Under the pieces are notes generated by a model. It did no database searches. It was not told where the DNA came from and worked only from the letters and a program-made list of their open reading frames with translations. The position numbers were made by a program, and so were the translations under genes. Shown here in pieces: positions 2,064-28,640 of a stretch of DNA of 64,000 nt. Origin of the DNA: an uncultured Phycisphaerae bacterium (GTDB lineage Bacteria > Planctomycetota > Phycisphaerae > Sedimentisphaerales > Anaerohalosphaeraceae); contig CALEDR010000017.1 of NCBI GenBank assembly GCA_937949545.1, positions 1 to 64,000 of the forward strand, given 5' to 3'. How positions within the stretch are numbered: the first letter of the stretch is position 1; every line of letters begins with the position of its first letter.

Positions 2064-2235
2064 ACCTTCTTTTTCTTCTTCCGAAAACAATTATCGGACA
2101 TTCGTTTAAATCGATTAAAAGCTCCTCTGCCCCCACGACCGCCAATTAAGTACATCTCCTCATTTGCCGAAGAAAAATTACCTATTAAGCCGGCAGAATC
2201 AGACAGGAAACCGCAACAGCATTTTTTCTGGATTC

Positions 2236-4311
2236 ATGAAAAGTTTTTTTTCTCATCAGGCCGGAAAACGAAAACCCCTGCAGAGGCGGCATTTCTCAGG
2301 ACCGCTTGGTGTGCTTCTTGTGGGACTCGTTTTCTGCCCTTTTGGCCCCCGGTTCTTTCAGGCCGATTCGTTTGCAGAGAAAAACCTCTTTGATATGTCC
2401 CTGGAAGAACTGATGAATGTCTCTCTGGTGGTTTCCTCCTCCAGAACCGAACAGAAATTAACGGAAAGCCATCTCCCGGTTAGTATCATCACCGCAGAAG
2501 AAATCCGGGCCAGCGGTTTGACGAATATCCCGGAAATTCTTCAGTTTTACACCGGCTTGGATGTCGCAAGACTGGACCGAACCCGCTCCATTGTCGGGGT
2601 CCACGGAATGCACAGTGAATACGCCGACCGCACCCTCGTCCTTCTGGACGGCAAAAGCATAATGAATCCTGTCTTTGGGGCTCCAAACTGGCTGAATCTG
2701 CCGATTTTCCTCGAAGACATAGAACAAATCGAAATCGTGCGAGGGCCGGCAGGAGCCGCCTGGGGAGCCAACGCTTTTACCGGCCTGATCAACATCATTA
2801 CGAAAAAACCTGACAAATTAGGCGGATTATTGAGTACAACTATTAACGAATATGGCGACAACTTCACCCATCTGCGGTTGGCCGATTCCAAAGAGAAATG
2901 GGCCTGGAAAATCTCAACCGGTTTTGAAAAAATAGAAGATTCCGATTCCGCCGGTGCCGGAGAGTACCAGCTTGGGTATCCGGCTATGGCCCCGCTGATT
3001 CCGGTACAAACGTACCCTGCACGCGATTTTCTGCGTACCTGGAAAACCGACTCCATTTTCTCGCATGACATAAACTCCTCCTCAAAATGGACGTTTGGAG
3101 CGGCCTATTCTTCTAATCAGACCGGAGACCGTGAAATGTGCGGCCGTTTTCCCCAAAATGACGTACACATCGAAATGCTTCGCCTGTTTTCCCGGACTGA
3201 ATTCGGCGTCGATGAAGAAGTCAGCGGTCACCTGCAATGGTATGGAAACTACGCTGCCTATCAAACTCCCTTCATTCTTGAACGCTATGATTATTTTGAA
3301 AATGACCTGGAAGGCCAGATAACATTCCATCCGAGCGAAAACCACAAAATCACGATGGGTGCCAATGTCCGATGGACGCAAATCAGAAACCGAAACAAAA
3401 CCCTTTTCGGAGAAATCCTTTTTGACCAAAGGCGTTATGAAGAGTATTGGACCGGCTTTTTCCTGATGGATCAAGTCAAATTGACTGACCGGCTGACCCT
3501 CGAAGCGCAAGGCCGAATCGACCGGTACAGCGAAAGCGGAACAGACGGTTCCCTCCGCCTGTCTTCCTTATACGCCCTCGATGAAGCCCGCAGTCATATT
3601 CTGCGGGCCGGTATTGCCAGGGCTTTCCGAGCCCCCTCCATCATGCTGCGGGAAACCGCGCTGACTGGACTGATGGGACTGGTGAATATCCTTCCAACAC
3701 CCGAACGGCTCAAAAATGAATCCGTCTCGTCCATCGAAGCCGGATACAGCGGACAGCTGACCGAGCGCCTTCTGCTCCGCGCCGATGTGTATTATCAGCG
3801 AATGGAAAAGCTCATTGGAAGTGAAATTGTCAGTGGATTCGGTCCTGTTCAGAACAGCGCCTTTTTCAATATCAACGGAGCCGACGCCTGGGGTACGGAC
3901 TGTGAACTGACTTTTCGAGACCGCTCTTTTACAGCCGCCGCCTTTTACAGCTTCAATCATTTGAGAACAGATTTCAGCAACCAGAATATTCGTGCTTTCT
4001 TCCCCTCCGAGCACAAAACAGGACTGCGCGTCCGCTGGAAACTGGACGAGAAATGGGCAATGAACTTCAACTATGTGTATAACAATCTGATCCCGATTAC
4101 CCCCACCGGCAGCCCGCCGGACGATATCGAGGTGAAAAACCGCTTGGACATCACCCTCACCCGCCAAATCGCTCAGGACAGAGGAGAATGGATGCTGGGA
4201 GTGACAGACCTTTTCAATCAAACCGTTCCGCCGGTTCACGATATCAGTTATTTTGCCGCCCACGAAACCCCCGGCCGAACCTTCTTTACTCGCCTGCAGA
4301 TTTATTTCTAA
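2236..4311 (+). CDS. TonB-dependent outer-membrane receptor
   Basis: 691-residue outer-membrane receptor of the TonB-dependent family, which imports siderophores, cobalamin or glycans using energy from TonB/ExbBD. After a basic, hydrophobic signal segment comes the DMSLEELMNVSL leader typical of these receptors, a plug domain (about 50-165, ending IVRGPAGAAWGANAFTG) and a long beta-barrel rich in aromatic, alternating segments ending ...LQIYF with a terminal aromatic residue. Start chosen at ATG 2236; an upstream TTG at 2164 is in frame but has no ribosome-binding site. Substrate cannot be told from sequence. It stands alone: the gap after larE holds no visible riboswitch and no transporter genes adjoin. 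Confidence 0.88.
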   Translation: MKSFFSHQAGKRKPLQRRHFSGPLGVLLVGLVFCPFGPRFFQADSFAEKNLFDMSLEELMNVSLVVSSSRTEQKLTESHLPVSIITAEEIRASGLTNIPEILQFYTGLDVARLDRTRSIVGVHGMHSEYADRTLVLLDGKSIMNPVFGAPNWLNLPIFLEDIEQIEIVRGPAGAAWGANAFTGLINIITKKPDKLGGLLSTTINEYGDNFTHLRLADSKEKWAWKISTGFEKIEDSDSAGAGEYQLGYPAMAPLIPVQTYPARDFLRTWKTDSIFSHDINSSSKWTFGAAYSSNQTGDREMCGRFPQNDVHIEMLRLFSRTEFGVDEEVSGHLQWYGNYAAYQTPFILERYDYFENDLEGQITFHPSENHKITMGANVRWTQIRNRNKTLFGEILFDQRRYEEYWTGFFLMDQVKLTDRLTLEAQGRIDRYSESGTDGSLRLSSLYALDEARSHILRAGIARAFRAPSIMLRETALTGLMGLVNILPTPERLKNESVSSIEAGYSGQLTERLLLRADVYYQRMEKLIGSEIVSGFGPVQNSAFFNINGADAWGTDCELTFRDRSFTAAAFYSFNHLRTDFSNQNIRAFFPSEHKTGLRVRWKLDEKWAMNFNYVYNNLIPITPTGSPPDDIEVKNRLDITLTRQIAQDRGEWMLGVTDLFNQTVPPVHDISYFAAHETPGRTFFTRLQIYF

Positions 4312-25679: not shown

Positions 25680-26450
25680 TTAATTCAAATCATACAGACG
25701 ATTATCCGGCGACAGAAAGCCCGTTTCCTCCGCAATCATCTTCCTGTCCTCCGGATAAGTCTCCGTGTATCGGTCCGCCAGCGTGTCCGCGTGTCCATCG
25801 CAAAAAGACACATTCGTTTTTCGGCGATGCCGAAATCCCTGCGTCCCGGCATATCGGCCGCTGAAACTCCAATCCCCCGGGTTGGCCCACGGCGCCCGCA
25901 TAAACTTATTCGCCCCCTCCCCATATTGGCCGTCCCCGAACAAGGCCGTCTGGGCCGGATTGCGAACCTGATAATATTTGGCCGGCTCCGGAATGCTCTC
26001 GGCGCTGCCGTGCCCGATATAACTGGTGTTGTAATTGTAGCCCGTAAACGGCTCGCCGCCCGCGTTGTCCGGCCCCCGAAAGCCCGGGCACTGCTGAATC
26101 TCCATCGAATCGCCGCTTTGCCACAAAATGCCGGGTTCCCAGGTAAAAATTCGCCGCCCGTCGGCCCAGCTTTGCGTCGTAATATAATCCCACGCAATCG
26201 TCCGGATTTGACTCCAGTCAGAACCGGCAGCGGTTCGATAGGCCATCGGATAGAATCCGTCATAGCAGGCCGTATAAGCCGATGCCGCCAGGGCACACTG
26301 CCGCAGCTTGCTCAGACACAGTACAGACTGCCCCTGCGCCCGCGCCTGCCGAAGCGCCGGCAGCAAAAGACCCGCCAAAAGCACCAGACAGGCCAAAACC
26401 GCCAGCACTTCCGTCAGTGTAAATCCCCGGCTTTTTCTACTCAATGCCAT
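25680..26450 (-). CDS. Pseudopilin-like protein with H-x9-DG-type motif
   Basis: 256 residues. A class III signal for prepilin peptidase is clear: SRG-FTLTEVLAVLACLVLLAGLLLPALRQAR, with Glu at +5 of the mature end (residues ~8-14). The periplasmic domain ends with HRRKTNVSFCDGHAD, the planctomycete H-x9-DG-type motif of the DUF1559/T2SS-G group. It carries YNYNTSYIG and other aromatic segments. It overlaps the upstream dockerin gene by 14 bp and is the third gene after the B12 riboswitch. A type II secretion-like or surface role is inferred. Confidence 0.85.
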   Translation of the reverse strand: MALSRKSRGFTLTEVLAVLACLVLLAGLLLPALRQARAQGQSVLCLSKLRQCALAASAYTACYDGFYPMAYRTAAGSDWSQIRTIAWDYITTQSWADGRRIFTWEPGILWQSGDSMEIQQCPGFRGPDNAGGEPFTGYNYNTSYIGHGSAESIPEPAKYYQVRNPAQTALFGDGQYGEGANKFMRAPWANPGDWSFSGRYAGTQGFRHRRKTNVSFCDGHADTLADRYTETYPEDRKMIAEETGFLSPDNRLYDLN

Positions 26451-27456
26451 CTTCCATTCCTTTCAGCCAATCGGCACTCAGCTGAACCAAATCCTCCAAA
26501 TCGACGCGGCCGTCTCCTGTAATATCCGCCGCAGGTATCCGTTCCGAGCGGCCCCGAACCCGTGCCACCGCATCAATCTCCGGCGTAGCGCCGCTCGTCC
26601 GCGGATTGTCAAAGCGAATGTACTGAATCCATTTCCGCCCGGTCTGCGGGTCAACCGGCAGCGGAAACAGCGAAATATCCAGCGCCGTACCGCCGGCCGA
26701 CTTTCCGTACTTCAAAGCAATTTGAGCCAGCGTGGTGTTGCGAAAATCCGTTTCCAGCAGCGCCGGGTCCAGCGGCAGCGTCGGGTCGGTCTCTTGACCC
26801 CACCATCCGGGCAGGCCCGGCTCGTACACCCGTCCGAGCGTCGGAGCAAACGCATCCGCAAAAAAATCTCCCAGAAAACCGTAGCGGCCCGGAAAGTTGG
26901 GGTCTGAAAAATTCGGAGCAACCCGATACGCCTCATCCATCGTAAAGGTAAACCAGTTCAGTCCATCCTGACTGACGCTGATCACCGCCGGCTCCTTCGT
27001 GCAGGGTTTATTCAGAGTCGCCAGCAGTGCCGGATTTCCCATCATCCAATACTGGCTGCCGCTGATGTTTTGAAAAGAGTTTCCGAAGACTATCAAATCT
27101 TTCCCGAAGGGATTATCCAGTACGTCATAAACCCGCCTGCCGAACCGCAGGACCAAACGCCCTCCAAAGCCGATGCTGACCACCTCACTGGGCAGCCAGG
27201 CCGGATAGACCGGCACCACCGGCACCGCCTGCCCGGGGGGTGCGGCCGCTCCGTCCCCGATGGTGTCCACCGTCGGCCTGCCTAAGGCCGCCTGCGGATT
27301 GTTATACGGCTGGCCCGTCCAGTAATGCGTCGGAACCCCCCCGCCCGGCACGTATTCCACTACCTCCACAGCAAAATCATTCGCATCCCAGGCGGCTCCT
27401 GCCGCCGCCGTCACAAGCAACATCCATCCGAGCGACGAAAAAATCTTGGTCTTCAT
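26437..27456 (-). CDS. Secreted protein with C-terminal dockerin-like repeat
   Basis: 339 residues: signal peptide (SLGWMLLVTAAAGAAW), a ~280-residue domain with LGRPTVDTIGDG, GFGGRLVLRFGRRV, DLIVFGNSF and AVISVSQDGLNWFTF, and a single Ca-binding dockerin-like repeat (ADITGDGRVDLEDLVQLSADWL) at 310-331. The middle resembles a family of surface proteins (VFENAF/SQDG type) that I recall from B12-regulated loci in other phyla; this recollection is unverified. Second gene after the cobalamin riboswitch, 51 nt from the PEP-CTERM gene; overlaps the pseudopilin gene. Confidence 0.75.
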   Translation of the reverse strand: MKTKIFSSLGWMLLVTAAAGAAWDANDFAVEVVEYVPGGGVPTHYWTGQPYNNPQAALGRPTVDTIGDGAAAPPGQAVPVVPVYPAWLPSEVVSIGFGGRLVLRFGRRVYDVLDNPFGKDLIVFGNSFQNISGSQYWMMGNPALLATLNKPCTKEPAVISVSQDGLNWFTFTMDEAYRVAPNFSDPNFPGRYGFLGDFFADAFAPTLGRVYEPGLPGWWGQETDPTLPLDPALLETDFRNTTLAQIALKYGKSAGGTALDISLFPLPVDPQTGRKWIQYIRFDNPRTSGATPEIDAVARVRGRSERIPAADITGDGRVDLEDLVQLSADWLKGMEDGIE

Positions 27457-27471
27457 ATTCTTCCAAAGAAG

Positions 27472-27499
27472 GAAGGCCGGACATAAGAATCCGGCCTTC
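27472..27499. other. Intercistronic hairpin
   Basis: Perfect 9-bp inverted repeat (27472-27480 with 27491-27499, 10-nt loop) between the PEP-CTERM and dockerin genes. There is no strong T-run on either strand, so it may act as an mRNA-stability or partial-termination element rather than a full terminator. Confidence 0.5.
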
Positions 27500-27507
27500 G
27501 CTGTACA

Positions 27508-28068
27508 CTACCGTTGTTTCCTGAGCACAAACAAGTTCACCAGGCCCAGCATACCCAAACTTGCCGGTTCCGGGATCGGGGTCCTGACCGAACCAGTAAA
27601 GGCCCAGTCCCAGTCACTCGGGCCGACCCACACCCAGTCGCCGCTGGCCCAGCCGTCCCAGGCACCGTTTGAAAGAACCCGGTCTGAAGCACCCACCCAG
27701 CTGAGCAACCAGTTCACCCCGTCCTCGGATGTAAAGAAACTCCACGAGCCGCCTCGTTTGGCAGCCCCCAGATAGCTTAAATCCGCAATAAACCAACCGC
27801 TGACGCTGTCCACCCAGTACGCACTCATCGTAAAGTCATCCGAATACGCATCAATCGCCAGCAGAGCATCATAGCTGGTTTTCGCTCCGTTCCACATGTA
27901 TCCAAAGGCATAACTGGTGCTGTCGTCAAAATCCACCACAATCATAGCCCGATTGCAGCCCTGACCGGCCCAGTATTCCACATTCACCTGCTCAAAACTC
28001 AATCCCGCTAACGCAGCGGACGACACACTGACCATCACACAAACACCTGCAAAAAGACAATGTTTCAT
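27508..28068 (-). CDS. PEP-CTERM secreted protein under cobalamin riboswitch
   Basis: 186 residues. Signal peptide (GVCVMVSVSSAALA), a ~140-residue domain with VEYWAGQGCNRAMIVVDFDD and SYAFGYMWNG, DALLAIDA and SFFTSEDGVNWLLSW, and the sorting tail PEPASLGMLGLVNLFVLRKQR (PEP motif, hydrophobic span, basic end) recognised by exosortase. No enzyme motif seen. The ATG at 28068 has a strong TCGGAGGAAAG site. It is the first gene downstream of a cobalamin riboswitch with terminator, so its expression should fall when B12 is plentiful. A surface B12-binding or uptake role is inference. Confidence 0.8.
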   Translation of the reverse strand: MKHCLFAGVCVMVSVSSAALAGLSFEQVNVEYWAGQGCNRAMIVVDFDDSTSYAFGYMWNGAKTSYDALLAIDAYSDDFTMSAYWVDSVSGWFIADLSYLGAAKRGGSWSFFTSEDGVNWLLSWVGASDRVLSNGAWDGWASGDWVWVGPSDWDWAFTGSVRTPIPEPASLGMLGLVNLFVLRKQR

Positions 28069-28211
28069 TCTTTCCTCCGAAAACCAATCTGAAAAAACCT
28101 TTTTTGACTTTTCATCAACGCTTCCGAGTACCGACAATGTGTTTCTCCGTCCTGCTGGTTTTCACCTCCGTTTCCTGCGTTTCTTTGGCCCTAACCGCGA
28201 GGGCCCCGGCG

Positions 28212-28258
28212 GACAAAACAAAAAAAGCCGCTGCCTCCGCCACGGAAGCAACGGCTTT
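28212..28258 (-). terminator. Intrinsic terminator of the riboswitch expression platform
   Basis: On the minus strand a stem (AAAGCCG...CGGCTTT; 28258-28243 with 28239-28224, two mismatches) is followed by TTTTTTTGTTTT. It lies between the cobalamin aptamer and the PEP-CTERM gene and has an upstream segment (28318-28324) able to pair with its 3' arm. Confidence 0.75.
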
Positions 28259-28374
28259 GAAAGTCTGATTCCATCGAAGGCCGAACCGTCTCTCCGCCAG
28301 GAGAGACTCCTTGCTCGGCGGCTTCAACGTGCACAGCGTTCCATCCGCGGGAAACATCTTATGCGTTCCGAACT

Positions 28375-28562
28375 GCAGGCAGGTTTTCTGACTTGCATCG
28401 ATTCTCCGCAGGCCCCTTCCCATCCTTTCGGACAGTGGGCTGTTTGCCCGCAAAGCGCCGAACACCTGTTCGGCCGATGCTTACAGCGGCGCGACCGTCA
28501 CGGTTTTTCACCGTGTTCCCGTTTGATTATCCGAATGTCCTCCGGGGACATTCAGACCTGCA
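28375..28562 (-). promoter_or_regulatory. Cobalamin riboswitch
   Basis: Minus-strand RNA with cobalamin-riboswitch hallmarks in order: P1 GCAGGT (28561-28556), a GGGAACACGGTGAAAAACCG segment (28520-28501), CGCCGCTGTAAGC (about 28491-28479), GGGAAGG further on, and the B12 box GCAAGTCAGAAAACCTGCC (28396-28378) whose ACCTGC closes P1. It starts about 80 nt after mlaF and is followed by a terminator and the PEP-CTERM gene. Family role: ligand binding stops expression of downstream genes. Confidence 0.92.
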
Positions 28563-28640
28563 ATCCATCTTCCACTGGTAAAGAACAAGAGATGAGGATA
28601 CAGCCGTTTCTGAAAAAATCAAGAAAAAACGCCCGACAGG

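Follow-up and report, generated by a model that had tools for sequence, protein, structure and literature searches.

A three-gene operon led by a cobalamin riboswitch in a 64,000-nucleotide stretch of an uncultured Phycisphaerae bacterium (contig CALEDR010000017.1 of assembly GCA_937949545.1, family Anaerohalosphaeraceae; hereafter the window) is probably a cobalamin-repressed system for putative cobamide capture at the cell surface, a variant of the BtuG/H/J strategy of Bacteroides. It encodes a PEP-CTERM protein (gene 1), a protein with a predicted BtuH-like domain (gene 2) and a pseudopilin (gene 3). Bacteroides surface proteins that bind vitamin B12 and stand under B12 riboswitches comprise BtuG, BtuH, BtuJ and BtuK. 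A previous sequence-only reading of the window had considered exported proteins to be non-standard targets of B12 riboswitches, which is contradicted by the exported B12-binding proteins known under such riboswitches in Bacteroides (PMC10404256, PMC12751083). For the same reason, the principle of surface capture is not new; otherwise the interpretation of the locus as a surface B12-capture system, made in that reading, is supported. What is new in the open literature, as far as searched, is the planctomycete operon, its dockerin and PEP-CTERM formats and its invariant pseudopilin. A search of open-access literature combining cobalamin riboswitch and planctomycetes with PEP-CTERM or pilin returned no description of the operon.

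The aptamer matches covariance model RF00174 over model positions 1-189 with 85.3 bits (cut-off 31.5; E = 1.3e-19), and the genome contains only one further cobalamin riboswitch. Both the B12 aptamer and the intrinsic terminator previously proposed from the letters of the window are upheld, and the coordinates given in that reading are right to within about 15 bases. The terminator is near-identical across three sister species and the 156-nucleotide region containing it folds much more strongly than shuffled sequences (z = -6.5).

Table 1. Features of the operon and its leader, in window coordinates
Feature	Position	Strand	Remarks
Cobalamin riboswitch aptamer	28361..28576	-	RF00174, full-length model match
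Intrinsic terminator hairpin	28224..28258	-	16-base-pair stem with 9 G-C pairs, T run behind it
Post-terminator hairpin	28165..28205	-	CGCG in loop and purine-rich stretch GGCCAAAGAAACGCAGGAAACGGAGG; putative role
Gene 1, exported PEP-CTERM protein	27508..28068	-	186 amino acids; ATG start
Gene 2, exported protein	26437..27456	-	339 amino acids; predicted BtuH-like domain (residues about 23-302) and dockerin-like EF-hand tail
Gene 3, pseudopilin	25680..26450	-	Prepilin signal GFTLTE, H-x9-DG, C-terminal GFLSPDNRLYDLN

A BtuH-like fold predicted for gene 2

The AlphaFold2 model of the gene 2 protein is usable (predicted local distance difference test, pLDDT, 77) and a Foldseek search against the PDB returned BtuG1 of B. 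thetaiotaomicron (8blw_B) as the sole match with E < 1e-3 (5.4e-6). Structural alignment gave Z 12.0 with BtuH2 carrying bound B12 (7biz residues 315-592; 169 amino acids, 20% identity) and Z 11.4 with the H domain of BtuG1 (8blw_B residues 388-660), while other jelly-roll domains reached Z 9.5 and below. BtuG1 is described as binding B12 at a second site, formed by a C-terminal extension that is homologous to BtuH2 (PMC10404256).

Short motifs point in the same direction. The IVFGN126SF and SQDG segments of gene 2 had been likened to surface proteins of B12-uptake loci in other phyla, and this likeness is borne out by the predicted fold as well as by the 7biz sequence: a query modelled on Bacteroides B12-locus proteins retrieved the 7biz segment DFCVQGNAFDGSSEPGIVWVMQD, in which DFCVQGNAF...SEPGIVWVMQD parallels the window's IVFGNSF...KEPAVISVSQDG in the same order; GN-x-F and EP-x-I/V-x-V-x-QD are shared. 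Counting along the crystallised construct (residues 103-593, preceded by two more and carrying a His tag of eight residues, of presumed composition) gives GNAF its N at 399 and its F at 401, and Asn399 and Phe401 of BtuH2 contact the phosphate and the lower base of B12 (PMC8941943). All 36 aligned homologues have the motif Asn, which is N126 in the window. This comparison of contacts covered Asn399 and GN-x-F; the further BtuH contacts are Gln333, His476, Tyr510, Trp511 and Trp577.

In addition to fold and motifs, the window operon shares with BtuH and BtuG1 the control by a B12 riboswitch and the surface-type export. Unlike those proteins, gene 2 is fused to dockerin-like EF-hands rather than to PKD or propeller domains and does not look like a lipoprotein, and its operon pairs it with a pseudopilin and has no linked BtuB. 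The NCBIfam lipoprotein family LIC_13355 matches gene 2 at E = 4e-4 with 19.6 bits, far under its cut-off of 120. Among the relatives there is a second class of gene 2 proteins (DFAIFENGF...ELAFVEVS), homologous to the first (hhalign probability 96.4, E = 1.3e-9).

The jelly roll at the core of BtuH comes close to domains of the CBM32 type, for which reason the fold alone is no proof of the ligand. It would also suit proteins that do not bind B12 at all and instead form an adhesin or matrix induced at B12 scarcity, with B12 as a lifestyle signal, and surface structures of planctomycetes commonly contain PEP-CTERM proteins, dockerin-type repeats and pilins. We regard such a surface structure as improbable, given that two B12-binding Btu proteins rank above CBM32 structurally, that the B12-contact motif is conserved, that DUF4465 proteins occupy the gene 1 position in relatives and that BtuFCD and CobTS lie within the relatives' gene cluster, both described below.

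Conservation of the operon and its invariant pseudopilin

The counts given here come mostly from metagenome assemblies, with genes taken from a simple open reading frame (ORF) picker and alignments that mix divergent proteins; loci were picked via the riboswitch or gene 2, never via the pilin. Among 39 genomes of the same family, 34 have a cobalamin riboswitch and 22 a gene 2 match, the weakest of these to the dockerin-like tail only, and the order riboswitch, PEP-CTERM protein, gene 2, pseudopilin recurs in the neighbourhoods. Over 392 genomes of the phylum the gene 2 profile matched 31, nearly all of one class, which we take from record titles and known placement to be Phycisphaerae. The proposed survey for riboswitch-adjacent homologues came out positive: outside the family, where gene 2 was found by protein profile alone, 22 of 26 genomes have a riboswitch directly upstream of it. 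In G149, riboswitch and gene 2 are at two contig ends and look split over a contig gap; G129 is counted neither with nor without a riboswitch, and G406 and G421 show none.

Altogether, an IVFGNSF-type gene stands behind a cobalamin riboswitch at 49 non-redundant planctomycete loci, and a pseudopilin follows on the same strand in every one of those with at least 3.3 kb downstream (45/45), against a background of 15 pilin profile matches per 733 kb of other flanking sequence. Cobalamin riboswitches of the same family that precede NrdD/MetE or cobalamin-synthesis genes come without the set of gene 1, gene 2 and pilin. The pseudopilin, treated as a bystander in the sequence-only reading, is thus an invariant member of the operon, and no known uptake system accounts for its link to the putative B12 capture. 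Since gene 1 is missing in many Phycisphaerales loci, where the riboswitch is directly followed by gene 2 and the pseudopilin, these two genes are the core of the operon. On the Armatimonadota contig L041 the order is permuted to pilin, gene 2, gene 1, which argues for joint function over simple neighbourhood inheritance.

A neighbourhood of chance, in which the riboswitch controls gene 1 or a small RNA only and the other genes are unrelated, could draw on the hairpin at 27499-27472, which resembles a terminator and separates genes 1 and 2. It is hardly credible when order and strand are kept over dozens of genomes, including loci without gene 1 whose riboswitch stands directly before gene 2.

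The start of gene 3 overlaps gene 2 by 14 base pairs. Its prepilin methylation signal is above cut-off (PF07963, 24.7 vs 21.2 bits), the pilin profile matches solved pilins (E = 1.7e-11) and the H-x9-DG motif is literally present (H208...D218 G219), so the pseudopilin assignment made earlier stands in signal and motif, although the H-X9-DG C-terminal domain TIGR04294 scores under its cut-off (11.5 vs 19 bits). Prepilin signal and H-x9-DG are shared with minor pseudopilins of type II secretion and type IV pili (the planctomycete H-X9-DG proteins), from which the gene 3 subfamily is distinguished by its GFLSxDNxxYDL ending and its tie to B12 riboswitch operons.

Proteins at the gene 1 position

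The C-terminus of the gene 1 protein reads IPEP-x-hydrophobic-RKQR, and 18 of 27 proteins at this position match PEP-CTERM (E up to 0.01). The PEP-CTERM tails include a transmembrane stretch. Two exosortase genes (PF09721) are present in the window's genome.

The predicted model of gene 1 is modest and returned no significant Foldseek match. With a finer structural aligner, the beta domain of human transcobalamin ranks first and second (5no0 and 5np4, Z 5.8 and 5.5; 96-97 residues of 105-106, root-mean-square deviation 3.2-3.3), the next unrelated chain being at Z 4.2; the aligner itself warns that Z values at this level can reflect a common arrangement. A transcobalamin-type fold had been written down as the expectation before the comparison. 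The beta domain of transcobalamin and intrinsic factor (SLBB beta-grasp, DUF4430) is therefore the best structural match of gene 1, which has neither a DUF4430 profile match nor an alpha/alpha toroid partner. An SLBB/DUF4430 clade was reported from planctomycetes in 2007 (PMC1796856), and a DUF4430 scan of the 39 family genomes gave nothing above cut-off. Searches of PDB sequences with the gene 1 profile returned no useful match. Given the warning on such Z values and the absent DUF4430 match, we treat a transcobalamin-beta-like beta-grasp domain in gene 1 as a lead.

Positional evidence from DUF4465 is stronger than this model match. DUF4465 (PF14717; the BtuJ domain, IPR027828) does not match gene 1 of the window, whose model is more beta-grasp-like, but it fills the gene 1 slot in six of the 27 proteins (best E = 7.8e-55), there with PEP-CTERM tail and riboswitch, and one of these proteins matches solved DUF4465 structures. 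A cobalamin riboswitch adjoins each of the nine DUF4465 loci taken from the phylum scan. Eight divergent DUF4465 proteins bind B12, including 'Pan' of Mucisphaera calidilacus in vitro (PMC13398666), and M. calidilacus belongs to the Phycisphaerae.

Individual loci show further arrangements. A single long ORF (L189:4701-6857) apparently fuses a class II gene 2 with a DUF4465 PEP-CTERM protein, which supports joint function. At L194:6658-7227, a DUF4465 PEP-CTERM gene lies behind a cobalamin riboswitch, and the next protein resembles, by eye, a corrinoid adenosyltransferase. The propeller-type gene 1 of L080 and L101 is not called BtuG here, its matches to six-bladed propellers being weak.

Links to B12 import and a proposed model of capture

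In some relatives the operon continues into genes of import and salvage: BtuF, BtuC and BtuD homologues in L101, and CobT, CobS and a histidine phosphatase followed by BtuF, BtuD and BtuC in L103, with L187 and L163 having the same layout as judged by gene order. Riboswitch, capture genes, pseudopilin, CobT, CobS, phosphatase and BtuF are found in one run at L103:10195-18885 and L163:6742-13207, the former run also including BtuD and BtuC; by gene content, these runs appear to join putative capture, salvage and import. The window's genome has one BtuFCD set, unlinked to the operon, and nine TonB-dependent receptors. CbiC, the one marker used, was not found in this genome, which suggests that the organism is unable to make the corrin ring and is consistent with dependence on uptake.

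The arrangement can be compared with the btuB riboswitch and BtuB-BtuFCD of E. coli, with which it shares a cobalamin riboswitch over uptake functions and BtuFCD in the genome; the regulated genes in the window are exported putative capture proteins and a pseudopilin rather than a TonB-dependent receptor. A TonB-dependent receptor in the window (2164-4311, near the 16S end) was considered and is not claimed for the operon because BtuB models score far below cut-off.

In the model that we propose, low intracellular adenosylcobalamin would leave the riboswitch unliganded and let transcription run past the terminator, and all three proteins would be exported. The BtuH-like protein would bind cobamide with high affinity through contacts to the corrin and the nucleotide loop. 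The gene 1 protein, retained in the envelope after an exosortase has processed its PEP-CTERM tail, would act as a second binding or lid module, its place being taken by a DUF4465 protein or a propeller in other lineages. The pseudopilin would be assembled by a machine like those of type II secretion or type IV pili and would either help to place the proteins on the outer surface or display them on a short pseudopilus. A TonB-dependent receptor and then BtuFCD would take over the captured cobamide. The riboswitch and the BtuH-like fold in this scheme are computed results; binding, anchoring, transfer and the role of the pilin, be it in secretion, in display or in a short filament, are inferred.

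Several results weigh against this scheme. Gene 2 profiles built from 18 and 36 homologues retrieved neither 7biz nor 8blw from the PDB at E up to 10 and gave no useful match beyond dockerin, and against a 43-residue BtuH2 fragment only EPAVISVSQD was aligned (hhalign probability 29.7). Because sequence profiles do not bridge this gap, we use the name BtuH-like and not BtuH for what is a predicted fold with a putative B12-binding domain, its basis being a structure model and short motifs. Both sorting signals read earlier from the window are visible in its proteins and matched among their counterparts, yet they score below cut-off in the window itself: PEP-CTERM in gene 1 (17.3 vs 20.7 bits) and the dockerin-like EF-hand end of gene 2 (PF00404, 11.9 vs 22.9 bits), the latter matching in 13 of the 22 homologues at this position (E up to 0.1; best match 2.3e-7). 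The transcobalamin likeness of gene 1 is weak (Z 5.8 on a model of pLDDT 71) and the DUF4430 profile (PF14478) does not match it. Two genomes with gene 2 and pilin, G406 and G421, have no riboswitch at the locus, and the operon is without a linked btuB-like receptor.

The lack of a linked receptor would also fit proteins that bind B12 as secreted or vesicle-borne scavengers without surface anchoring, the pseudopilin then belonging to the secretion machine that exports them. The DUF4465/BtuJ counterparts in B. thetaiotaomicron are vesicle-associated (PMC12751083), and type II secretion has pseudopilins among its core components. Such scavengers are unlikely, however, as PEP-CTERM tails with a transmembrane stretch and the exosortases of the genome point to anchoring, and the set contains one pilin gene rather than a full secretion system. 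For surface capture with anchored proteins, a bolder form is a B12-harvesting pseudopilus: a short type IV-like filament built at starvation would carry or position the BtuH-like and transcobalamin-like proteins beyond the outer membrane, and its machine would help to bring B12 to the receptor. This we hold to be rather doubtful.

Should anchored surface capture be correct, a strategy worked out in gut Bacteroides would extend to a free-living phylum with different anchoring signals, and the IVFGNSF family, a PEP-CTERM family and a pseudopilin subfamily, all thinly characterised, would gain a function. If the transcobalamin-like model is right, a bacterial relative of the animal B12 carrier domain would sit inside a dedicated B12 operon, and a pilin-type route of vitamin uptake, if true, would be a new kind of system. 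The fixed link between pseudopilin and B12 capture is directly testable.

Leader hairpins and neighbouring genes

The hairpin behind the terminator is kept in four species, with its purine-rich stretch perfectly conserved, and its 26-nucleotide pattern occurs a single time in the genome. Similar CGCG-loop hairpins are found 3′ of the aptamer in many relatives. Across window positions 28165-28258 and the corresponding regions of relatives, several post-aptamer hairpins have CGCG-type loops, among them the relatives' terminator loops. Loop L5 of the aptamer (GGUCGCGCC) could pair with these hairpins as a kissing loop, for which covariation is uninformative, CGCG being self-complementary. High-GC relatives have the CGCG-loop hairpin directly after the aptamer and no terminator, whereas in the window's family it comes after the terminator; this difference in position suggests mixed transcriptional and translational control of the leader. 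The hairpin that separates genes 1 and 2 and resembles a terminator is possibly an internal attenuator.

Behind the operon lies a ComF gene, which we discount as part of the ordinary neighbourhood. In four loci of one Phycisphaerae family (L175, L176, L177 and L178), gene 2 and the pseudopilin are separated by an extra exported protein of about 475 amino acids, which may be a propeller, as in L090. The second cobalamin riboswitch of the window's genome (G000 contig C21:175260-175461, locus L073) is upstream of NrdD, an apparent NrdD activase and MetE, and is a case of standard control of B12-independent isozymes.

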